Below, piece after piece: positions 2-8,637 of a stretch of 8,637 nucleotides of DNA. The notes under the pieces are model-generated. The model was not told where the DNA came from, made no database searches, and saw only the letters and a list, made by a program, of their open reading frames with translations. The first letter of the stretch is position 1. The number at the start of each line of letters is the position of its first letter. The DNA comes from Actinomycetes bacterium. Lineage in GTDB: Bacteria > Actinomycetota > CALGFH01. The position numbers and the translations under genes are program-made. The stretch spans positions 1 through 8,637 of the forward strand of contig JASLIH010000313.1 of assembly GCA_030152105.1 (NCBI GenBank). The letters are read 5' to 3'.

Positions 2-1087
2 CCGGCCCGCTCGGCCGACTTCCGGGGGCTGCTGTCGGCAATGGGGTACGACCCCGACGACGCCTCGACCGACCCGGCGTCGCCGACCGGGGTCGGCAAC
101 CAGGCCGCCGCGGCCGTGCTCGCCTTCCGGGCCACCGACGGATCCAACCAGGCCGGCGGCTACGCCGACACCACCGGCTACGTCCCGGTCAACACCCCCG
201 ACCAGGTGAACGACCCGTTCCGCTGGCAGCCACTGCGCTTTGTCGACGCCAGCGGCAACACCGTCGTCCAGAAGTACCTGACGCCGCAGTGGGGCAACGT
301 GACCCCGTTCGCGCTGACCTCGCCCAACGAGTTCCTGCCGCCCGGCCCGACCCAGCGGACGCTGCTGCAGTTGGACGAGGAGGTCACCGACACCCTCCTG
401 CAGAGCGCGACCCTCACCGACCTCTCCAAGGTCCGGGCCGAGTACTGGGCCGACGGGCCGGCCAGCGAGACGCCACCGGGGCACTGGCTGCTGTTCGGCG
501 GGGCCGCCGCCAGGGCCAGGGGCTACACCCTCGACCAGAGCGTCAAGCTGACCTTCGCCCTCGCCAACGCCGAGCTGGACGCCAGCATCGCCGCCTGGAA
601 CGCCAAGCGCCGCTGGGACTACGTGCGGCCGATCACCGCGGTCCGGACCCGCATGAAGGGCAAGCTGGTGCTCGCCTGGGCCGGCCCGTACAAGGGCACG
701 CGGCTCATCCGAGGCGAGACGTGGCATCCCTACCAGGCGACCACCTTCCCGACCCCGCCGTTCCCCGAGTACGTGTCCGGGCACTCCACCTTCAGCGGCG
801 CCGGGGCCAGGGTTCTCCAGAGCTTCACCGGCAGCGACCTGTTCGGGGCCAGGGTGACGGTCCGCCCGGGCACCTCGTTCATCGAGCCGGGCGCGACCCC
901 GTTGCTCCCGACGGTGCTCCTCTGGCCGACCTTCACCATGGCCAGGGACGAGGCCGGTAACTCCCGCCGCCAGGGCGGCATCCATTTCCCCGACGCCGAC
1001 CTCGACGGCCGCAACCTGGGCGCGTCAGTGGGCCAGAACGCCTGGACCAGGGCCCAGACCTACTTCACCGGCACGGCGGGCGGCTAG
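2..1087 (+). CDS. Vanadium-dependent haloperoxidase / PAP2-family protein, C-terminal part (5' end off window)
   Basis: The reading frame is open from base 2, so the gene starts before the window. The ATG at 41 is internal: family-like sequence (RSADFRGLLSAMGYDPDD) runs straight through it. The visible part has about 361 residues. Three blocks match the vanadate/phosphate pocket of the vanadium haloperoxidase and acid phosphatase superfamily: K-x6-RP (KRRWDYVRP, 605-631); a PSGH-like loop, here YVSGHS, with its His at 782-784; and SR-x5-H (SRRQGGIHF), with its His at 983-985. PSGH reads VSGH, and Asp lies at +3 and +5 after the last His rather than +4. Such variation is seen in bacterial members, most of which are uncharacterised, so halide-oxidising activity is not shown. 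Whether it is secreted cannot be judged without the N-terminus. The gene converges on the OCD-family gene and is probably unrelated to it in function. Confidence 0.88.
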   Translation, partial: PARSADFRGLLSAMGYDPDDASTDPASPTGVGNQAAAAVLAFRATDGSNQAGGYADTTGYVPVNTPDQVNDPFRWQPLRFVDASGNTVVQKYLTPQWGNVTPFALTSPNEFLPPGPTQRTLLQLDEEVTDTLLQSATLTDLSKVRAEYWADGPASETPPGHWLLFGGAAARARGYTLDQSVKLTFALANAELDASIAAWNAKRRWDYVRPITAVRTRMKGKLVLAWAGPYKGTRLIRGETWHPYQATTFPTPPFPEYVSGHSTFSGAGARVLQSFTGSDLFGARVTVRPGTSFIEPGATPLLPTVLLWPTFTMARDEAGNSRRQGGIHFPDADLDGRNLGASVGQNAWTRAQTYFTGTAGG

Positions 1088-1180: not shown

Positions 1181-2245
1181 TCACCAGCGGACGTACTCGG
1201 CCATGTTGGGATGGTCGAAGATCATCGTCTCCTGCATGGTGAGCTCGCGGCCCTTGCCCGCCTCGACGGCCCGCCGGTACATGGCCAGGGCGATGGCCAC
1301 GTCGACGAACGCCAGCCCGACGGCGTTGAAGTAGACGCGCTCGTCGTCGGCCTCCCGGCCCGGCTTCACGCCGGCCACGACCTCGTCCAGGTTCCCGTGG
1401 ATGTCGGCGTCGGTGAGCTCGCCGTCCTTGTACATCCGGCTCAGGGTCTGGGTGCGGTGCTTCACCGTCTCCCAGTCGTCGCACACGATCTTCTGGCACT
1501 GGCTGGCCACCGCGTACTCGTCCTCCCAGCCGCCGACGTGGCTGTAGAAGGACCCGGGCTTCATCCAGCTGGCCTTGAGCAACGGCGCCTGGGCGCTGGT
1601 CGCGGTGACCAGGATGTCGGCCCCCTCCATGGCCTTGGCGCCGTCGGTGCCGGTCGCCACCAGCTCCATGTCGGGGACCAGGGGGGCGAGCTCGCGGACG
1701 AACTCCTGGCCCTCCTCGGCCGTCTTGGCCGAGACCCGGCACTCGGCCAGCGTGGGGCAGGCCGTCTTCATGGCCAGCAGGTGCATCTTTGCCTGCTCGC
1801 CGCTGCCGATGAAGCCGATCACCCGGGCGTCGGTGGGCGCGAAGTGCTTGGCCGCGAGCGCCCCCATGGCCCCGACCCGGATGTTGGAGGCGAGCGTCCC
1901 CTCGAGCACCGCGATCGGGAACCCTTTCTCGATCTCGGAGAGGATGAACAACGCGGTCAGGTTCTGGAGGCCGAACCTGGGCACGTTGGGCGGGAAGACC
2001 GACACCCATTTCATGCCGCAGACCTTCTCCGGCAGGAGGGTCGCCGGGAGGCAGTTGATCCGCTCCTGGGTCTCCTGGTTGAAGATCTGGACGATCTTCT
2101 CGGGGAACATCACGTCGCCGTTGCGGTGGGCCAGCAGCGCCGACTCGGCCGCCCCGATGGCCAGCCGGAAGTCGAGGCAGCCGGCCTCGAGCAGGTCCTC
2201 CTGGGACAGGTAGGTGAAACGGATCGCGTGGGGGGCCTGGGTCAT
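1181..2245 (-). CDS. Ornithine cyclodeaminase / mu-crystallin family NAD(P)-dependent protein
   Basis: This 354-residue protein has the usual length for the family. The N-terminal part contributes the substrate site: K79 in GMKWVSVFPPN, and R123 in LASNIRVGAMGALAAKHFA, where many members have LTAYRTGA. A Rossmann dinucleotide-binding loop follows (IGFIGSGEQAKMHLLA, about residues 143-158). The C-terminal block DGELTDADIHGNLDEVVAG plus a KPGREADDE stretch matches the conserved family end. Members include ornithine cyclodeaminase, alanine and opine-type dehydrogenases and ketimine reductases, and the substrate cannot be read from sequence. The LASNIRVGA variant suggests it is not a classical ornithine cyclodeaminase. 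The ATG at 2245 is 4 bp after the cyclase stop and has a strong Shine-Dalgarno, so the two are translationally coupled and probably act on one pathway. It is the last gene of the minus-strand series. Confidence 0.88.
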   Translation of the reverse strand: MTQAPHAIRFTYLSQEDLLEAGCLDFRLAIGAAESALLAHRNGDVMFPEKIVQIFNQETQERINCLPATLLPEKVCGMKWVSVFPPNVPRFGLQNLTALFILSEIEKGFPIAVLEGTLASNIRVGAMGALAAKHFAPTDARVIGFIGSGEQAKMHLLAMKTACPTLAECRVSAKTAEEGQEFVRELAPLVPDMELVATGTDGAKAMEGADILVTATSAQAPLLKASWMKPGSFYSHVGGWEDEYAVASQCQKIVCDDWETVKHRTQTLSRMYKDGELTDADIHGNLDEVVAGVKPGREADDERVYFNAVGLAFVDVAIALAMYRRAVEAGKGRELTMQETMIFDHPNMAEYVRW

Positions 2246-2249
2246 GTCC

Positions 2250-3047
2250 TCACTCCTCCAGGAAGGCGACCGCGCGACAGAACGCCGCCTCCCCGCCGAC
2301 GAACTTCCAGGGGAAGCAGCCGAACTGGATGCGCCGGTCGAGCACCTCGTCGATCTGGCCGCCCAAGTTCTCGATGTGGATGACGTCGTGGGGGAACAGC
2401 AGGGTGTGCATGATCTGAAGATCCCCCTTGGGGAACAGCTCGTCCAGGGGGCGGCCGAGCGCGGCCTCGGCGTCCTCGGCCTCGTCGGGCCGGATCTTGC
2501 GGATGACGGTGTTCATCGGGTGGTCGGCGCTGCCGGCGTCGACGGCCAGCCAGCGCACCCCCCGGGCCAGCACCCACTCGGCGAACTCCCGGGTCGGCCC
2601 GGGGTGGCGGACGAAGTAGCGGGTCTCGTCCACCTGGCTGCGGTCGACCCAGTTCTCGTTGTAGAAGCGGTGGTAGCCGGTGTGGATGATCAGGATGTCG
2701 TCGCGCTCGACCCGAAGGCCGGTCTCCCGCTCCCAGCGCTCGAAATGCTCGGGCCCGTACAGCTGGTAGTCGCCAATCCCCATCCGCTCCAGGTCCACCA
2801 CCACCGCCGACCCGACCAGCCAGGGCAGCGGCAGCTCCCCGATGGTCCTGCCCGCCGACCAGAAGTGCACCGGCCCGTCCAGGTGCGTGCCCACGTGCAG
2901 GGTCGAGGTGATCTCCTGGCCGCCCACCTTGTCGAACGCCAGCCGCTTGACCCACTTGATCGAGGGTCCGTCATAGCTCGCGAACGCCGGCGTGTGCATG
3001 CTGAAGTCCTGCGACAGGTCAAGCACCCGCATCGACTCGAGCCCCAC
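2250..3047 (-). CDS. Cyclase family protein (PF04199), metal-dependent amide hydrolase
   Basis: The 265-residue protein carries the family signature H-x-G-T-H-x-D-x-P-x-H (HVGTHLDGPVHF, H51, H55, D57, H61), which binds the catalytic divalent metal. A distal metal/active-site block fits around HPGPTREFAEWVLARGVRW and VDAGSADHPMN. Known relatives are kynurenine formamidase (KynB) and isatin hydrolase, which hydrolyse amide bonds, the latter in a ring. The substrate here is unknown. The GTG at 3047 is chosen because GGGAG sits 7 nt upstream; the ATG at 3032 (MRVLDLSQDF) is a possible alternative with a weaker site. No signal peptide is visible, so it is probably cytoplasmic. It is coupled to the OCD-family gene and lies downstream of the allFGH-like genes, with the ArsR-VOC pair in between. 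A role in ureide or nucleobase-derived ring opening is inference. Confidence 0.88.
   Translation of the reverse strand: MGLESMRVLDLSQDFSMHTPAFASYDGPSIKWVKRLAFDKVGGQEITSTLHVGTHLDGPVHFWSAGRTIGELPLPWLVGSAVVVDLERMGIGDYQLYGPEHFERWERETGLRVERDDILIIHTGYHRFYNENWVDRSQVDETRYFVRHPGPTREFAEWVLARGVRWLAVDAGSADHPMNTVIRKIRPDEAEDAEAALGRPLDELFPKGDLQIMHTLLFPHDVIHIENLGGQIDEVLDRRIQFGCFPWKFVGGEAAFCRAVAFLEE
2253..2259 (-). promoter_or_regulatory. Shine-Dalgarno for the OCD-family gene, inside the cyclase C-terminal codons
   Basis: The minus strand reads GGAGGAG, 7 nt before the ATG at 2245. The same bases encode the last two Glu codons of the cyclase and directly precede its TGA. This fixes the OCD-family start and indicates coupled translation of the pair. 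Confidence 0.8.
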
Positions 3048-3099
3048 AGCACGTCTCCCTTCCGACTGGTCACCGCACGCCCAGGCCCGCCGGTGCCGG

Positions 3100-3122
3100 C
3101 TGGACTGCGTCCAGGCGTCCAG
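3100..3122. promoter_or_regulatory. Candidate operator upstream of the cyclase gene (palindrome plus extra half-site)
   Basis: CTGGAC (3100-3105) and GTCCAG (3109-3114) form a perfect 6-3-6 inverted repeat. A second GTCCAG follows at 3117-3122, making an 8-bp tandem direct repeat, GCGTCCAG twice, at 3107-3122. It lies 53-75 bp upstream of the cyclase start, where a regulator of the cyclase/OCD pair could bind. No convincing -35/-10 pair was found beside it, and the regulator is unknown. Confidence 0.35.
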
Positions 3123-3129
3123 GTGGGGA

Positions 3130-3174
3130 GCGTAGCCGAACCGAGGGCCGACGTGGCCGCTGGCGCGGCTACGC
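3130..3174 (-). terminator. Possible hairpin at the end of the arsR-VOC unit
   Basis: GCGTAGCCG (3130-3138) and CGGCTACGC (3166-3174) form a perfect 9-bp inverted repeat around a 27-nt loop. The second arm contains the VOC stop codon (3169-3171), which is unusual for a terminator. A competing shorter stem exists (3152-3160 with 3165-3173, one mismatch). There is no T-tract. It may attenuate read-through from the ArsR-VOC unit into the cyclase gene. Confidence 0.25.
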
Positions 3175-3552
3175 CTTGGCGATCTGGATCAGGTTGCCGC
3201 AGGTGTCGTCGAGCACCGCCGTCGTCACGGCCCCCATCTCGAGCGGTTCCTGCGTGAACTGGACGCCGAGGCCGCGGAGCCGCTGGAACTCGGCATGGAC
3301 GTCGTCCACGGCGAACGAGGCGACCGGGATCCCGTCGGCCGCCAGTGCCGCCTTGAAGGGCTTGGCGGCCGGGTGGGCGTCAGGCTCCAGGAGCAGCTCG
3401 GGGCCGTCGGGAGCATCGGGAGCAACGACGGTGAGCCAGCGATGCTCTCCGACGGGAATGTCGGTCTTCTTCACGAACCCGAGCGCGTCGGTGTAGAACC
3501 GCAGCGCCTTCTCCTGGTCGTCCACCAGCACCGACGTCACGTAGATCCTCAT
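3169..3552 (-). CDS. VOC (glyoxalase/extradiol dioxygenase fold) family protein
   Basis: This is a 127-residue protein, the normal length of a single-domain vicinal-oxygen-chelate protein. The first beta-alpha-beta module is visible in YVTSVLVDDQEKALRFYTDA, the metal-side strand in PELLLEP, and the second module from FAVDDVHAEFQRLRGLG to the C-terminal TCGNLIQIAKA. The C-terminal metal-ligand position, usually Glu in glyoxalase-type enzymes (GNLIEL), is Gln here, and the first strand lacks an obvious His. It may therefore bind a ligand rather than catalyse, as resistance or binding VOC proteins do. The ATG at 3552 overlaps the ArsR stop in an ATGA motif and has GGGAAGGG just upstream; longer in-frame extensions would run through the arsR gene and are rejected. 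Its partner ArsR protein probably represses this gene. Confidence 0.85.
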   Translation of the reverse strand: MRIYVTSVLVDDQEKALRFYTDALGFVKKTDIPVGEHRWLTVVAPDAPDGPELLLEPDAHPAAKPFKAALAADGIPVASFAVDDVHAEFQRLRGLGVQFTQEPLEMGAVTTAVLDDTCGNLIQIAKA

Positions 3553-3836
3553 GTCCCTTCCCTTCCGCGGGTTGGTCGCCAGCGCTCGACGATCGTCTCG
3601 AGCGGCTTGGTGTCGAGATGGTGGAACTTGTATCGGCCCTGCCTCCTCGTCCTCACCAGGCCCGCCGACTCCAGGACGTCGAGGTGCTGAGAGATCGCCT
3701 GTCGCGACGAGCTCAGTCCGTGCTTGACCGCGAGCCGGGAGCAGATCTCGAAGAGGGTCTGCCCGTCCCGGTCGCTGAGCTCGTCGAGGATCGCTCTCCT
3801 CGTCGGGTCGGCGAGCGCCCGATACACGTCGGTCAC
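3549..3836 (-). CDS. ArsR-family winged-helix transcriptional repressor
   Basis: The 95-residue protein from a GTG start is VTDVYRALADPTRRAILDEL, the typical N-terminus of the family. A winged helix-turn-helix follows, with the recognition helix in SSSRQAISQHLDVLESAGLV and the wing in RTRRQGRYKFHHLD. The metal-sensing ELCxC motif of true arsenic or zinc sensors is absent; there is a single Cys (FEICSRL), so the signal is probably not a metal. A longer frame opening at a TTG at 3872 would translate through the promoter and operator and is rejected. The stop overlaps the VOC start (ATGA), so the two genes form one unit, a common actinobacterial pairing. The adjacent palindrome suggests autoregulation. 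Confidence 0.9.
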   Translation of the reverse strand: MTDVYRALADPTRRAILDELSDRDGQTLFEICSRLAVKHGLSSSRQAISQHLDVLESAGLVRTRRQGRYKFHHLDTKPLETIVERWRPTRGREGT

Positions 3837-3842
3837 GCCCGC

Positions 3843-3872
3843 AGTATATGCAAGTAGCGACTTGCCTATCAA
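3843..3872 (-). promoter_or_regulatory. Promoter of arsR-VOC (TTGATA, 18 bp, TATACT), leaderless
   Basis: On the minus strand a -35 box TTGATA (3872-3867, five of six to consensus) and a -10 box TATACT (3848-3843) are spaced by 18 bp. The expected start of transcription, about 7 nt past the -10, falls on the GTG start codon of arsR at 3836. No Shine-Dalgarno precedes that codon, so a leaderless mRNA is likely. The -35 box contains the TGA stop of allH. Confidence 0.7.
3846..3869. promoter_or_regulatory. ArsR operator palindrome within the promoter spacer
   Basis: A 24-bp interrupted palindrome has inner arms GCAAGT (3850-3855) and ACTTGC (3860-3865) around AGCG, one mismatched base each side, then ATA (3846-3848) and TAT (3867-3869). 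It fills the spacer and touches both promoter hexamers, so a bound dimer would block RNA polymerase. The position is ideal for autorepression by the adjacent ArsR protein. Confidence 0.72.
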
Positions 3873-4810
3873 CCTCGGTCAGGGACGGCCCGATCGCCGG
3901 CGGCCCCACCGAGCAGGCAGGCGGCGGCGATCCCAATCGCGTAGGCCCGGCCGCTGCCGTGGCCCAGCCGCCGTAGCCGCGCCAGGGCCGCCGGCCAGGC
4001 CCGCTCGCCGGCGGGGCTCAGGTCGAGCAGTCGCCCGGCCGGCTCGGCCAGGAGACCATGGGCGGCCAGCTCGAGCAGCGTCGCCGACAGGGCGGTCGTC
4101 CGCTCTGGCGCCGGGTCGACGAGGGCGGCCAGAAAGCTGTGCAGGAACGACCGGCCCATCCCTGTCGCCGGGCCCAGGACCGCCACGGTCCCGGCGACCG
4201 CGGCCAGCAGGTCGTCGCCCTCTGGGGTCAGCCCTGGCCCACGCCCCAGCAGCTCGCGGGCGCCCGCGGCGGCGGGCTCCGGGTCGCGCTCCCGAATCCC
4301 CCGGAACAGCCACGCCAGCCCGGCCGCCCCCTCCGGGTCGGCCGCGGTGGCCAGCCCGATCCGGCCCAGCTCCCGAACCAGGGAAGGGGTGTGCTGGTGG
4401 TCGTCCGCAGCCCCCTCGGCCCCGAGGGCACGGAGAAGCGCCGCCCCGCGGGCGCCGACCGCCTGCCGCGTGGCGCCTGAAGGAACGGGGACCGTCGGGT
4501 CCCAGCCTGGGGGGGCGGCAGGGTCCCAGGTGACCTGGACGGAACCCAGCCCCACCCGGCCAGGGGCCAGCCGGGCGGCCCTACCCACACCCGCACTGGC
4601 GTCGGCCCCCACCAGGGCGCCCGACCCGGCGGAAAGCGCGATGGCGTTGGGCAGGAGGGGCACCTCGCGGGTGGTGATGGCGATCACGAACCCGTCCAGG
4701 TCGACCCAGGCGGCGGTGGCCCCGGCGCCGAGGACCACGCCGTCATGGGGGCCGGGCGTGAGGCGTTCCAGGACCGGCGTGGCGACCAGGTGGGCGGGGA
4801 GGGTGACCAC
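3869..4810 (-). CDS. allH: AllH/YlbF-like (DUF2877), oxamate carbamoyltransferase subunit
   Basis: The 313-residue protein carries the DUF2877 hallmarks: GRGPGLTPEGDD (about 189-200), TTALSATLLELAA (238-250) and GHGSGRAYAIGI (283-294). In E. coli the homologue YlbF/AllH works with FdrA/AllF and YlbE/AllG as a carbamoyltransferase acting on oxalurate/oxamate; the same role here is inferred from co-occurrence of all three. The GTG start at 4810 lies 11 bp after the allG stop with only a weak ribosome site, so it probably relies on coupling. No signal peptide or membrane segment is seen. It ends with tandem stops, TGA TAG, the first lying within the -35 box of the downstream arsR promoter. Confidence 0.85.
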   Translation of the reverse strand: MVTLPAHLVATPVLERLTPGPHDGVVLGAGATAAWVDLDGFVIAITTREVPLLPNAIALSAGSGALVGADASAGVGRAARLAPGRVGLGSVQVTWDPAAPPGWDPTVPVPSGATRQAVGARGAALLRALGAEGAADDHQHTPSLVRELGRIGLATAADPEGAAGLAWLFRGIRERDPEPAAAGARELLGRGPGLTPEGDDLLAAVAGTVAVLGPATGMGRSFLHSFLAALVDPAPERTTALSATLLELAAHGLLAEPAGRLLDLSPAGERAWPAALARLRRLGHGSGRAYAIGIAAACLLGGAAGDRAVPDRG

Positions 4811-4821
4811 GTGGAGCCCGC

Positions 4822-6219
4822 TCAGCCGGTGTCGGCCAGGGCCCGGGTGGCGGCCACGAACGCCTCCATGGGCGGTTCGACGAGGCCGGCGCCGACCTGG
4901 CCGACGCCGGGGTCCTTGTGGGCGATGCCGGTGTTGACGGTGGGGAGGACGCCGGTGTGGACGACCTCGCGGGCGTCGATGCCGAGCGGGGTGCCGCGGA
5001 AGCCCAGCGTGGGAAGCTGGTAGGAGGCGCTCTCGGCCCAGGTGATGTCGTACATGGCCAGGGTGGCCGCGACCGCATCGGAGGGGCTGCCGCCGACGAA
5101 GCGGACGATCGCCGGGGCGGCGGCCATGGCCATCCCGCCGATGCCGATCGTCTCGGTGATGGTCGAGTCGCCGATGTCGCGGTTGGCGTCCTCGGGACCG
5201 AACCCGGGCAGATACAGGCCGTCGACCACACCGGCCGGTCCGGTGAACCAGCGGTCGCCGGTCCCGGCCAGGCGGACCCCGAACTCGGTGCCGTTGCGGG
5301 CCATGGCGGTCACGATCGATGAGCCGGCCGTCCCGGCGGCCGCGTCGGCGGTGGCCTTGCCGGCGGCCATGGCCAGGTTGAGGAAGAAGTGGTCGTTGCC
5401 GGAGATGAACTCGGCCGCGGCGACCACCTCGGCGGTCGGCTCCTCGATGGTCAGCAGGGCCGGCAGGAGCGTCCGCAGCAGTAGCGAGGTGCCGGCCCGG
5501 TTGCGGTTATGGCCCTCGTCGCCCATCTGCAGCGCCTGGGCGATCAGGGCCCGGAGGTCCAGCGGCTCGGGCAGCCGTTCCAGCGCGGCGGTCAGGACCC
5601 GGGCGAGGACGTCCCGCATCCAGGCCAGCCGGTCCAGCACCTGGGTGTCGTAGGCGCCGTAGCGGAGCACCTTGCCGAGGCCCTCGTTGAGGGTGCAGAA
5701 CGCGCGGTTGCCCGAGGCGCCGTTCTCGACCACCCACACCGGCATGGAGGCGCTGACCACCCCGGCCATGGGTCCGACGGCACCGCGCTCGTGGCAGGGA
5801 CCAAAGCGCAGCCCGCCCTGCTCGGCCAGCCGCACCGCCTCCGCCGGGTCGGCGGCGATGCCCTCATAGATGGCCGCGCCGATGATCGCGCCCCGCAGCG
5901 GTCCGCACATCTCGGCCCAGTCGATCGGCGGGCCGGCGTGCAACAGGGTCCGTTCGTCCAGGCCGGGTAGCAGGTCCCCGGCCCGCCCGATCCCCACGAC
6001 CCGCGGCTCGGCCGCCTGCATGGCCGCCACCGCCCGGTCGTTGGCGTCGGCGATCTCGCCCGCCCGGGCGCCCAGGCGTTCCAACGCCCCCTCGGCCCCG
6101 TCCGCCGGGGGTCGCCACTCGACCCTCGCCACCTCGGCCTGCTGGCGTTCCAGCTCCGCGGCGAACAACTCCACGCCGGCGTTGACCACCTTGAGCGGCT
6201 GTCCCAGCAGGCCGCTCAT
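4822..6219 (-). CDS. allG: AllG/YlbE-like (DUF1116), oxamate carbamoyltransferase subunit
   Basis: The 465-residue protein has full family length. Conserved blocks in order are MCGPLRGAIIGA (104-115), GPMAGVVSASMPVWVV (149-164), QMGDEGHNRN (231-240), FISGNDHFFLNLAMAAGKA (271-289) and an acidic/Gly-rich block (about 333-370, with GFGPEDANRDIGDS). In E. coli the homologue YlbE/AllG is part of the FdrA-YlbE-YlbF carbamoyltransferase, which exchanges the carbamoyl group between oxalurate/oxamate and phosphate. The ATG at 6219 overlaps the allF stop (ATGA) and has a GGAGAG-type site about 8 nt upstream. The frame stays open upstream to 6786, but that part is antisense-like R/P/G-rich sequence inside allF and is not used. 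It is cytoplasmic by appearance. Confidence 0.9.
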   Translation of the reverse strand: MSGLLGQPLKVVNAGVELFAAELERQQAEVARVEWRPPADGAEGALERLGARAGEIADANDRAVAAMQAAEPRVVGIGRAGDLLPGLDERTLLHAGPPIDWAEMCGPLRGAIIGAAIYEGIAADPAEAVRLAEQGGLRFGPCHERGAVGPMAGVVSASMPVWVVENGASGNRAFCTLNEGLGKVLRYGAYDTQVLDRLAWMRDVLARVLTAALERLPEPLDLRALIAQALQMGDEGHNRNRAGTSLLLRTLLPALLTIEEPTAEVVAAAEFISGNDHFFLNLAMAAGKATADAAAGTAGSSIVTAMARNGTEFGVRLAGTGDRWFTGPAGVVDGLYLPGFGPEDANRDIGDSTITETIGIGGMAMAAAPAIVRFVGGSPSDAVAATLAMYDITWAESASYQLPTLGFRGTPLGIDAREVVHTGVLPTVNTGIAHKDPGVGQVGAGLVEPPMEAFVAATRALADTG

Positions 6220-7919
6220 CCCCGCTCTCCGCTCTGGCTGCCCGGAAGGTCCGGACGGGTCCGGCCGGGGCGGCGCAGCCCCGCGCCGGGACCGCCCGGT
6301 CCAGGGCCAGGCCGAAATGACATGGTCTCCAGCCCGCCTGGCAGCGGTTTGCGCTGCGCTGTGGCGGTGTCCGTGCCGGCCACGCCGGTGCGGCCGGCGG
6401 CGGCCAGGGCGAGGCGGGCCGCCTGGGCGCTCGATCGGGTGACCAGGGCGCCGGCCTCGCGCAGGGTGGCCGCCTGGCCGTCCAGGCCCTGGGGGTCGCC
6501 GGCGGCACCGCACAGCGAGACCACCACCGACAGCCCGCCCGGGCGGTCGGCCAGGGCCCGCTCGACCAGGGGCGCCAGCTCGCCGGCCGGGTCGGGGTGG
6601 GCGCCGAAGCCGAGGACCACGTCCAGCAGCACCACTCCGGTCTCGGGGTCGGCGGCCTCCCGGCGGAACCGTTCGTTGCGCAGGCCTGGGTCGATCATCG
6701 GATGGGCCCGGCCCTCGGTCATGGCGTCGTCGCCGAAGTCCACGAAGGTGTGCCCCTCGCTCCGGTTCGGGTCGGCGAGCCGCCACTCGGGCCGCAGTGG
6801 GATGTTGGACGCGACCCGCCCCACCACCCCGGCCACCACCGCCATCGCCTCATAGCACAGGGTCCCCCCACTGAACAGCCCCCTGATCGCCCCCGGGGTG
6901 ACAGCCGGCGGGTCGGCCGGGAGATCGGGCTCCGTCGTGCTCCCGACCCCCGGGATCCCGGTCGCCCAGGCGGCCGCGGCCTCCAGGGAACCCGCGAACC
7001 CCACCCCGGGCGGCAGGGGCGGCGGGTCGGTCATGGCGGGGAAGGCCAGGATCACCGGCTTGCCGGTGGTGGCGGCGGCGTCGGCGACCCGGCGGGCCAC
7101 CTGCGGGTCGGGGGGCTTGGAGATGACGACCAGGCGCTCGGTGGCGTCGTCGGCGGCCAGGAGGTCGAGGGCGCGGAGGGTCATGATGCCGCCGACCTCG
7201 GGGGAGAGGTCGCGGCCGCCGACCCCGATGGCGTGGGAGATGCCGATCCCGGCCGCGTCGAGCAGGCAGGTGACCTCCTGGATGCCGGTGCCGGAGGCGC
7301 CGACGACCCCGACCGGGCCGCGGCGGACGGCGTTGGCGAACCCGAGGCCGACGCCGTCGAGGATGGCGGTGCCGCAGTCGGGGCCCATGAGCAGCAGGCC
7401 GCGTTCGGCCGCGACCTTCTTGCAGGCGGCCTCGGTGGCCGGGTCGAGCCCGTCGGAGAAGCAGAACACGTGCAGCCCGGCCTGGAGGGCCTCGGCGATC
7501 TCGTAGTGGAGGTGCCGCCCGGGGACCGACAGCACGGCCAGGTTCAGGTCGGGGTCGCGCCGGGTCGCGGCCCGCAGCGACCTCGGCGCGGCAGCTGGGC
7601 CGCCGTCGGGGCCAGCGCCCGACCCACCGCCCGCGCCCACTCGCCCGGCGCCGGCCAACAGCGTGTCGACCTGCACCATGGCCTGGTCGGCGGCCGCGTC
7701 GTCGGCCGCCCGGACACACAGCACCAGGTCGCTCGGCCCGAGCCCGGCCGGGTCGACGGCGAACCCCTGCCTGGCCAGCAGCTCGAGGTTGACCGGGGTG
7801 GCGGCCACGGCCGCCGCCGCCTCGACCCCGGGCAGCTCCTCGGCCTGCCGGGACACCTGCATCAGGGTCACCGAGTCGTGATAGGTGCCCCTGCGGACCT
7901 CAACCCGGGAGGCCGTCAC
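6216..7919 (-). CDS. allF: AllF/FdrA-like, oxamate carbamoyltransferase subunit with succinyl-CoA synthetase-like fold
   Basis: The 567-residue protein is close to E. coli FdrA (about 555). From GTG 7919 it starts VEVRRGTYHDSVTLMQVSR, the family N-terminus. Residues about 165-260 form the CoA-ligase-like core: LMGPDCGTAIL (177-187), the Gly-rich loop GVVGASGTGIQEV (204-216) and VGGRDLSPEVGGIMTLRALD (233-252). The second half has LFSGGTLCYEAM (348-359), VDFGDDAMTEGRAHPMID (393-410) and VLLDVVLGFGAHPDP (430-444). A Gly/Pro-rich insert sits at about 88-115, and residues after about 508 form a Pro/Gly/Arg-rich tail that looks disordered and beyond the family core. The GTG overlaps a TGA in the frame of the upstream permease tail (GTGA), supporting this start over a longer one at 8066. 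Together with AllG and AllH it likely handles carbamoyl transfer with oxalurate/oxamate. Confidence 0.9.
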   Translation of the reverse strand: MTASRVEVRRGTYHDSVTLMQVSRQAEELPGVEAAAAVAATPVNLELLARQGFAVDPAGLGPSDLVLCVRAADDAAADQAMVQVDTLLAGAGRVGAGGGSGAGPDGGPAAAPRSLRAATRRDPDLNLAVLSVPGRHLHYEIAEALQAGLHVFCFSDGLDPATEAACKKVAAERGLLLMGPDCGTAILDGVGLGFANAVRRGPVGVVGASGTGIQEVTCLLDAAGIGISHAIGVGGRDLSPEVGGIMTLRALDLLAADDATERLVVISKPPDPQVARRVADAAATTGKPVILAFPAMTDPPPLPPGVGFAGSLEAAAAWATGIPGVGSTTEPDLPADPPAVTPGAIRGLFSGGTLCYEAMAVVAGVVGRVASNIPLRPEWRLADPNRSEGHTFVDFGDDAMTEGRAHPMIDPGLRNERFRREAADPETGVVLLDVVLGFGAHPDPAGELAPLVERALADRPGGLSVVVSLCGAAGDPQGLDGQAATLREAGALVTRSSAQAARLALAAAGRTGVAGTDTATAQRKPLPGGLETMSFRPGPGPGGPGAGLRRPGRTRPDLPGSQSGERG

Positions 7920-8124
7920 GGCTCCCGAGCCGGCCGGTCGCCGGGCTCGTCCCCGGCCCCTCGCCCGCCACCGCCCGGCGGGTCGGCCACCGGCGGCTCG
8001 CCACCACGTGCTGCATCCCGATCCCGGCGGTCCGTCCCCACGACAGCCGCTCCTCGGGCCGGACAACCGCTCCCGGGGTGACCGTCCTGCCGTCGCCGTG
8101 CAGCTCCCAGAGCCGGAGCGCCAT
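7916..8124 (-). pseudogene. Internally deleted NCS2 nucleobase (uracil/xanthine) permease gene
   Basis: From ATG 8124, with GAGGAGGG 8 nt upstream, the first 42 codons match the cytoplasmic start of NCS2 permeases of the UraA/RutG type: VVRPEERLSW then GRTAGIGMQHVVA. Intact proteins continue with MFGAT and some 12-14 membrane helices. Here homology stops dead at about 7999 and no helix follows. The N-terminal frame ends at 7900 after 74 codons. In another frame, 7999-7916 reads EPPVADPPGGGG and on to a TGA that overlaps the allF GTG in a GTGA motif, as expected of the permease's own hydrophilic C-terminus. The simplest reading is one internal deletion of roughly 400 codons that also shifted the frame. 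An assembly collapse is the alternative. The transporter cannot function as shown, but its place fits uptake of a nucleobase for the allFGH pathway. Confidence 0.72.
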
Positions 8125-8275: not shown

Positions 8276-8637
8276 ATGCGGCGGCGGTTGCCGACGGTGC
8301 ATGCGGCTTGGTCCGGTTCCTCCTCGGCAGCTGTGCCTAGGCCGCCCCCAGCCAACTGGCCGCCCCGCCGGGCCGGTGCGGTGCGCTCGACCCGGAATCA
8401 GGCCGGCTGGGCCACCCCGAATTACGACCCGAAGACCAACCTCGCCTGGTACGGCAGCCTGCACCTGAACACCCGCTATCTGACCAACGCCTCCGCCCGC
8501 CGCAAGACCGCCTGCCACGAGCTGGGCCACATCTTCGGGCTCGACCACCGCCGGAGCGGCAAGACCTGCATGCGCGACGGCTTCACCACCATGTACGGCC
8601 ATCCCGACAGCACCGACTTCGCCAACCTCCGCCGGAT
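8276..8637 (+). CDS. Matrixin-like zinc metalloprotease, N-terminal part (3' end off window)
   Basis: The frame is open from 8213 to the window edge. It contains TACHELGHIFGLDH, the HExxHxxGxxH zinc site of metzincin proteases, with the first His at 8516-8518 (residue 81 from ATG 8276). The catalytic Glu follows and three His ligands are present. Just downstream comes a Cys-Met pair (KTCMRDGF) that could be the Met-turn, with a possible disulfide between that Cys and the one preceding the site. Upstream, AGWATPNYDPKTNLAWYGS and LHLNTRYLTN look like the preceding strands of the domain. ATG 8276 has GAGGG 5 nt upstream. The first 35 residues are Arg/Pro-rich with no hydrophobic signal-peptide core, odd for a family that is nearly always secreted. 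The 5' part may be mis-started, truncated or rearranged. Later GTG codons (8297, 8333, 8381) are weaker start options. Confidence 0.72.
   Translation, partial: MRRRLPTVHAAWSGSSSAAVPRPPPANWPPRRAGAVRSTRNQAGWATPNYDPKTNLAWYGSLHLNTRYLTNASARRKTACHELGHIFGLDHRRSGKTCMRDGFTTMYGHPDSTDFANLRR

Follow-up and report, generated by a model that had tools for sequence, protein, structure and literature searches.

A PF04199 cyclase linked to AllFGH-like carbamoyltransferase genes in a proposed energy-conserving variant of oxidative pyrimidine breakdown

In Escherichia coli, AllF, AllG and AllH act jointly to convert oxalurate to oxamate plus carbamoyl phosphate and back, an activity assayed in the reverse direction (PMC11326118). 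Homologues are also found in nitrifiers, in clusters (allFGHK) that lie beside a biuret hydrolase and combine AllFGH with a carbamate kinase without upstream allantoin genes; the authors propose oxalurate as substrate, and the main text of that report does not use the word cyclase (PMC12625717). A different ureide is formed in the oxidative pyrimidine pathway of barbiturase and ureidomalonase (Soong 2001, 2002, cited in PMC3758960). The barbiturase product is 3-oxo-3-ureidopropionate, that is, ureidomalonate; homologues of the AtzD/Bar family were reported in 3% of 6423 genomes, and the route is described as rare (PMC3758960). An 8,637-nucleotide contig from an Actinomycetes bacterium (GenBank assembly GCA_030152105.1, contig JASLIH010000313.1), referred to in its entirety as the window, carries AllF-, AllG- and AllH-like genes together with a gene for a cyclase of family PF04199. 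Our reading, which we consider likely although each of its reactions is one that we infer, is that the window carries the central genes of an oxidative route for pyrimidines with two of the known enzymes exchanged: the PF04199 cyclase would stand in for the barbiturase, and the ureidomalonase, which gives urea and malonate, would give way to an energy-saving carbamoyl transfer. Such a scheme would stand beside the single route so far known for this breakdown.

The cassette lies on the minus strand and is transcribed in the order NCS2 remnant, AllF, AllG, AllH, ArsR, VOC, cyclase, OCD (Table 1). All three AllFGH subunit families (FdrA, PF06545, PF11392) stand side by side, with the AllF and AllG reading frames overlapping by 4 nt, and Pfam matches and coordinates bear out the original prediction of a tightly packed trio accompanied by a cyclase and an OCD-family protein. 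The packing resembles that of the E. coli subunits, to which the window proteins are 39% (AllF), 50% (AllG) and, over 111 aa, 33% (AllH) identical (strain K-12). A coupled cyclase/OCD pair had also been placed behind the trio. The coupling is evident in the OCD gene starting 4 nt behind the cyclase gene, but an ArsR-VOC pair that the prediction did not mention, itself joined by a 4-nt overlap of the ArsR gene with the VOC start, is inserted before the cyclase. Allantoin genes and carbamate kinase had been called absent, and Pfam found neither AllD nor carbamate kinase in the 8.6-kb window; no oxidase resembling xanthine dehydrogenase (Xdh) was found there, and Rfam gave no match.

The association of AllG with the cyclase extends far beyond this contig. 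One genome for each of 84,980 species was scanned with the window AllG, yielding at least 538 relatives, from which the best 80 loci were kept; gene families at these loci were counted with profiles built from the same 80 loci. A cyclase is present in 70 of them; in 64 of these it starts less than 600 bp behind AllG, the other six having AllH in between (four loci), a CoA-transferase in between (one) or a separation of 9.6 kb (one). Six of the ten loci without a cyclase end within 142 bp of AllG. The further four are L022, L026, L085 and L094. The genome of L094 encodes a 46% identical cyclase elsewhere, that of L022 retains a broken cyclase in pieces 73-80% identical, and the AllG of L085 is identical to that of L145, from a genome (G269) that has a PF09663 gene instead of the cyclase. 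Cyclase loci span Actinomycetota, Dormiibacterota, Spirochaetota, Bacillota, Atribacterota, Bipolaricaulota, Chloroflexota, Acidobacteriota, Pseudomonadota and others.

To offset the bias of sampling by AllG, the reverse test was run from the cyclase side in 388 Bacillota genomes. A cyclase at E 1e-30 or better was found in 41, and the best 30 are at least 61% identical. AllG lies within 1.5 kb in 23 of these 30 loci, carbamate kinase within 1.5 kb in 13, and a nitrilase-family gene within the same distance in 15. Among the seven loci without a near AllG, two (L220, L227) are cut upstream by a contig end, the cyclases of L221, L223 and L225 adjoin nitrilase and XdhM genes, and that of L230 adjoins CoA-transferase and nitrilase genes. 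The AllG-cyclase linkage, for which the original prediction had proposed a survey in Actinobacteria, is real, broad and not a matter of chance.

The window cyclase matches PF04199 well above threshold (123.5 bits, cut-off 23.1) and Pfam reports no other family for it; PF09663, the family of known barbiturase, was not detected. In common with isatin hydrolase (PMC6117287) and kynurenine formamidase it has the PF04199 fold and an exact metal motif, HxG[T/A]HxDxPxH. Across 28 aligned cyclases the form HxG[T/A]HxDxxxH is universal and the version with proline occurs in 13, and an invariant Glu226 sits in an H-x-E-[N/C] stretch resembling the KynB glutamate motif. Isatin hydrolase and kynurenine formamidase are the closest solved structures among the matches listed, and of the 1737 homologues at E 1e-40 or better, the 120 listed go by the names arylformamidase, kynurenine formamidase and cyclase family protein. 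These likenesses would suit an enzyme of tryptophan or indole breakdown that lies beside AllFGH by chance. Such an explanation is very unlikely, however, given a score of 41.2 bits to the kynurenine formamidase/arylformamidase model TIGR03035 (cut-off 223), the different gene neighbours, the linkage to AllG in both search directions, and the lack in all 28 aligned cyclases of GLQC/GLAS. That motif is the signature of isatin hydrolase (PMC6117287). With curated cut-off and signature both missed, identity as either enzyme was rejected.

The decisive indication of function comes from sister actinobacterial clusters that share these partners and lack a cyclase. Thirteen of these loci carry a ring-opening amidohydrolase of family PF09663 in its place, and the four of these proteins compared with the PDB all match barbiturase (5hwe) best, scoring 520 bits against 318 for the best cyanurate hydrolase in L139, 541 against 315 in L151, 538 against 309 in L014 and 519 against 304 in L141. 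The other PF09663 proteins of the 13 are 70-89% identical to that of L139 (L135 over 165 residues only), and a Moorella-type cyanurate hydrolase is 47% identical to it. In L151 the PF09663 gene abuts AllH-AllF-AllG-XdhM-S-L. Among 396 actinobacterial genomes, 48 contain AllG, 26 contain PF09663 and 21 contain both (Fisher 2.5e-17 for co-occurrence), leaving five with PF09663 and no AllG. In the AllG tree the proteins of the 21 genomes are sister to the cyclase clade that includes the window (joint clade SH-aLRT 96). PF09663 is found in 21 of 21 genomes of the sister AllG clade and in none of the 27 other AllG genomes. A close cyclase is absent from the 13 barbiturase genomes (best E 3e-12, 29% identity), while three cyclase genomes searched alongside returned cyclases 81-97% identical. 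In a FastTree phylogeny of XdhL the proteins of G001 and G002, close relatives of the window's genome, group with sequences from barbiturase loci, and the protein of barbiturase locus L151 falls among sequences from cyclase loci. Because one step seems to be filled by two unrelated families, we infer that the cyclase is a second barbiturase, unrelated to PF09663.

Further partners of the cyclase recur across these loci. In the 32 cyclase loci of at least 19 kb, Xdh-like genes occur in 28, NCS2 permeases in 26, CoA-transferases in 14, amidases or nitrilases in 13, thiolases in 12, carbamate kinase in seven and a cytosine deaminase or permease in three. AllH was found in all 32 and in 55 of the 70 cyclase loci overall, a count from which some may be missing since AllH is divergent. 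Linkage to carbamate kinase, for which a survey had also been proposed, recurs at 13 of the 70 cyclase loci and at 11 of the 13 with a barbiturase homologue, in addition to the Bacillota loci above, and is a feature shared with E. coli AllFGH. The arrangement is most complete in L020 (Solirubrobacterales), where a single stretch holds NCS2, XdhM-S-L, a cytosine-deaminase-family gene, carbamate kinase, AllF-G-H, the cyclase and, at the contig end, a partial amidase, with one divergent PucR gene; gene calls at loci such as L020 and L151 used a home-made codon score. The cytosine deaminase family is present in L020, L021, L036 and L091 (checked with NCBIfam for L020 and L021).

Two positions in TM10 of the NCS2 permeases, which we take to read out specificity, point to uracil. 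The 80 loci contain 45 NCS2 hits, five of them fragments and 40 covering TM10; all 40, of which 36 come from cyclase loci, have EN at these positions, as E. coli UraA and RutG do, and none has the QN of XanP, XanQ and UacT. The EN motif is also present in 13 of 14 distinct aligned permeases from barbiturase clusters. These permeases bear directly on a purine route, in which the Xdh-like enzyme and permease would handle xanthine or urate and the cyclase would open a purine-derived hydantoin. Purine catabolism typically involves Xdh-like and PucR genes, and both are present at the loci, but with a uracil-type motif in every scorable permease, cytosine deaminase family genes at four loci and no allantoin genes in the 70 cyclase loci, we regard a purine substrate as quite improbable. 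The search for AllA-AllE used single E. coli sequences as source and so finds near relatives only; the same profiles do detect AllD in L155 and L156.

The original prediction favoured parabanate, which the cyclase would open to oxalurate for conversion by AllFGH to oxamate and carbamoyl phosphate. In its favour, E. coli AllFGH is an oxamate carbamoyltransferase (PMC11326118), and the title of a 1965 paper (cited in PMC3364942) describes such an enzyme induced by parabanic acid in a Streptococcus. CoA-transferase III genes are, moreover, present in 26 of 70 cyclase loci, and one of the two tested is nearest to a CoA:oxalate model. The uracil-type permeases, the molybdenum hydroxylase, the cytosine deaminases of some loci, the replacement by barbiturase homologues in sister clusters and the missing allantoin genes all argue against it. 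No match to E. coli Gcl was found in the 70 loci, a query that might presumably be expected to pick up an oxalyl-CoA decarboxylase. The AllG phylogeny separates the two systems as well, the clade of E. coli AllG and AllD-linked AllG (three rows, SH-aLRT 100) excluding that of the window. Parabanate is in our estimation an unlikely substrate. It is the combination of Xdh-like partner, uracil-type permease, cytosine deaminase and barbiturase-type PF09663 that leads to the assignment of barbiturate, probably the substrate in the window's group, and hence ureidomalonate in place of oxalurate is proposed for the window AllFGH.

The proposed sequence of reactions would begin with uracil, imported by the NCS2 permease or made from cytosine, and its oxidation to barbiturate by a molybdoenzyme of the xanthine dehydrogenase family; in the nearest genomes, genes of this kind are located away from the cassette. 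Barbiturate would then be opened to ureidomalonate by the PF04199 cyclase, in the role otherwise played by the unrelated PF09663 barbiturase. Ureidomalonate is the CH2 homologue of oxalurate, and AllFGH chemistry acting on it would give malonamate and carbamoyl phosphate; by homology to oxamate carbamoyltransferase, AllF-AllG-AllH would move the carbamoyl group to phosphate. Carbamate kinase could convert the carbamoyl phosphate to ATP, and malonamate may be disposed of by an amidase or a member of the nitrilase family, acting alone or together with a CoA-transferase. Ring opening ahead of carbamoyl transfer, as in the original prediction, is the natural order. The scheme shares its proposed centre, barbiturate, with the known oxidative pathway, along with the uracil-type permease, the cytosine deaminase family in some loci and the barbiturase homologue in sister clusters; from the E. 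coli system it differs in the linked PF04199 cyclase and the absence of allantoin genes.

On balance we also favour the broader view that an energy-conserving breakdown of uracil, combining an Xdh-family uracil dehydrogenase, a PF04199 barbiturase and an AllFGH-type ureidomalonate carbamoyltransferase, is widespread among anaerobic spirochaetes, clostridia, Chloroflexota and actinobacteria. Titles, abstracts and term counts in the open-licence PMC literature gave no description of a route in which AllFGH is joined to a barbiturase or to a cyclase of family PF04199; the nitrifier study (PMC12625717) comes nearest. Should this type of PF04199 cyclase prove to be a barbiturase, the oxidative route would be much commoner than has been described, above all in anaerobes, and a large group of cyclases with homologues now named arylformamidase or kynurenine formamidase would gain a function. 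The AllFGH family would likewise come to represent a class of ureide carbamoyltransferases instead of a single reaction, and the clusters would provide a pointer to the gene for the uracil-oxidising enzyme.

A number of observations weigh against this pathway. Gene content and linkage are what is observed directly, and the individual reactions are deduced from them; E. coli AllFGH is known to act on oxamate, not malonamate. The 80 loci are those closest to the window AllG and form a biased sample. L026 has 2.5 kb behind AllG without a cyclase, and the L229 cyclase has neither AllG nor any other partner in the 1.5 kb upstream. The mutual exclusion of cyclase and PF09663 is imperfect, with two of 25 genomes of cyclase-type loci carrying both, one of which (G400) has its cyclase in two pieces. 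The best cytosine deaminase match in G001 and G002 is 37% identical, and the permeases of the barbiturase clusters belong to another NCS2 branch, that of L139 scoring 278 bits with PbuX and 126 with the uracil permease model. The CoA-transferases of L044 and L021 are nearest to a CoA:oxalate model (378 bits, cut-off 522) and a succinate-glutarate model, respectively. In a quick tree, a larger group of cyclase-linked AllG from anaerobes encloses the E. coli-type AllG clade, whose branch is long. Finally, the proposed scheme does not account for the HyuA/HyuB-like and GNAT-thiolase-DUF35 genes described below.

Other such observations concern the identity of the PF09663 proteins and bear on cyanurate, or another cyclic ureide, as the substrate, ring opening of which would give carboxybiuret or biuret for carbamoyl transfer by AllFGH. 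All three actinobacterial PF09663 proteins scanned pass the NCBIfam cyanuric acid amidohydrolase model (456-460 bits, cut-off 360), in a scan that listed no separate barbiturase model. In Bacillota, AllG lies no more than 1.5 kb from PF09663 at seven of 12 loci (L233, L234, L235, L237, L240, L241, L242; about 1500-2600), and no genome is shared between the 12 with PF09663 and the 41 with the cyclase (1.3 expected). The two Bacillota PF09663 proteins tested (L233, L240) are nearer cyanurate hydrolases than barbiturase, at 732 versus 333 bits and 334 versus 204 bits. AllB- and AllC-like genes lie near two of these Bacillota loci (L247, L248), and the nitrifier clusters with AllFGH beside biuret hydrolase (PMC12625717) can be read in the same way. 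Cyanurate, however, needs no oxidation, yet Xdh-like genes are found in most long cyclase loci; the permeases are of the uracil type, and the four actinobacterial proteins compared with structures are all nearest barbiturase. For the cyclase loci a cyanurate-type substrate is accordingly given little credence, and barbiturate is retained. The AllFGH family as a whole is not tied to barbiturate, because the AllG-linked PF09663 proteins of Bacillota are nearer cyanurate hydrolases and AllB/AllC-like genes lie near two loci; more than one ring-opened ureide may serve as carbamoyl donor to AllFGH-type enzymes. At the Bacillota PF09663-AllG loci the donor may be carboxybiuret or biuret. In L017, L152 and L154 an AllFGH-type cluster includes a RutB-like hydrolase, and cyclase and barbiturase were not found; the substrate there is perhaps biuret or another ureide.

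The window copy of the pathway is partial, with the permease deleted and no oxidase or kinase within 8.6 kb. The nearest genome compared (G001, an uncultured actinobacterium) has an AllG 94% identical to that of the window and the order NCS2-AllF-AllG-AllH-cyclase-OCD, without ArsR-VOC. By BLASTN, window positions 8112-8000 correspond at 95.6% identity to the start of its NCS2 gene (L019), and the match resumes from position 8005 at the last 26 codons of that gene. This jump indicates that about 1.2 kb of the window permease is missing, confirming the permease remnant predicted in front of the trio. The NCS2 copy in L019 is intact and has RutG as its best model (437 bits, under the RutG cut-off). 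Relative to the nearest genome, the stretch from AllH to the cyclase is longer by about 0.8 kb in the window (ArsR-VOC, 3169-3836), an inserted segment not present in the two nearest relatives (L019, L011). G001 and G002 each encode an Xdh large subunit away from the cassette, 57% identical to that of L020, and a carbamate kinase elsewhere in the genome (51-52% identical). Behind the Xdh genes of G002 lie CoxG-like, nitrilase-family and HyuA/HyuB-like genes.

The OCD-family enzyme had been assigned a step of the route, and repeated linkage of its gene in AllG neighbourhoods had been proposed as a check; neither the step nor the linkage was supported. Orthologues occur in four of 296 genomes and are linked to the cassette in G001 and G002 only; the two others have no cassette gene near, lying next to a GGDEF protein or close to a regulator of the AraC type. 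Linkage of OCD to the cyclase was found only in the window and two close genomes, and the OCD gene is a lineage-specific passenger of the window's genus, rejected as a general part of the pathway. Its best curated model is archaeal alanine dehydrogenase, at 187 bits against a cut-off of 409; assimilation of ammonia into alanine, a role suggested by this model with its cut-off missed, is a guess.

Table 1. Features of the 8,637-nucleotide window, cassette genes first
Feature	Coordinates	Strand	Basis
OCD/mu-crystallin family dehydrogenase, 354 aa	1181..2245	-	PF02423 E 3e-54 (Pfam)
PF04199 cyclase, 265 aa; proposed second, PF04199-type barbiturase	2250..3047	-	PF04199 E 1e-35
VOC (glyoxalase/dioxygenase fold) protein, 127 aa	3169..3552	-	PF00903
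ArsR-type regulator, 95 aa	3549..3836	-	PF12840/PF01022; NF033788 60.7 bits, cut-off 55
AllH-like subunit, former DUF2877, 313 aa	3869..4810	-	PF11392 E 1e-17
AllG-like subunit, former DUF1116, 465 aa	4822..6219	-	PF06545 E 2e-95
AllF/FdrA-like subunit, 567 aa	6216..7919	-	PF00549 (Ligase_CoA), PF02629 (CoA_binding); NF004760 411.9 bits, cut-off 433
NCS2 nucleobase permease remnant, only start and last codons	7928..8124	-	BLASTN vs L019
Vanadium-chloroperoxidase-like protein (DUF6851 and VCPO second domain)	2..1087	+	PF21167, PF22778
Matrixin-like metalloprotease fragment	8381..8635	+	PF00413 E 5e-4, under curated cut-off

Several minor features accompany these loci. In the Dormiibacter genomes G399 and G400 (L194, L198, L202) the cyclase genes are in pieces, and the PF09663 gene of G400 lies beside an XdhL-like gene. 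HyuA/HyuB-like (caprolactamase-like) genes recur with the cyclase or the barbiturase (L062:4422-8476, L139:1-3088, L140:4077-7567, L191:5802-9778). A GNAT-thiolase-DUF35-like module lies behind the cyclase of anaerobes, as in L070 (12356-14640) and L081 (12297-14530), and behind Xdh in the barbiturase locus L151 (11810-14083); its GNAT-like protein has no Pfam match (L046 scanned) and adopts a GNAT fold in a model (L070), which pointed to no specific function. In the window itself, two genes flank the cassette. The vanadium-chloroperoxidase-like gene, with its 5' end beyond the window edge, is convergent with the OCD gene and stands outside the system, and the matrixin-like fragment is a divergent neighbour that forms no part of it.

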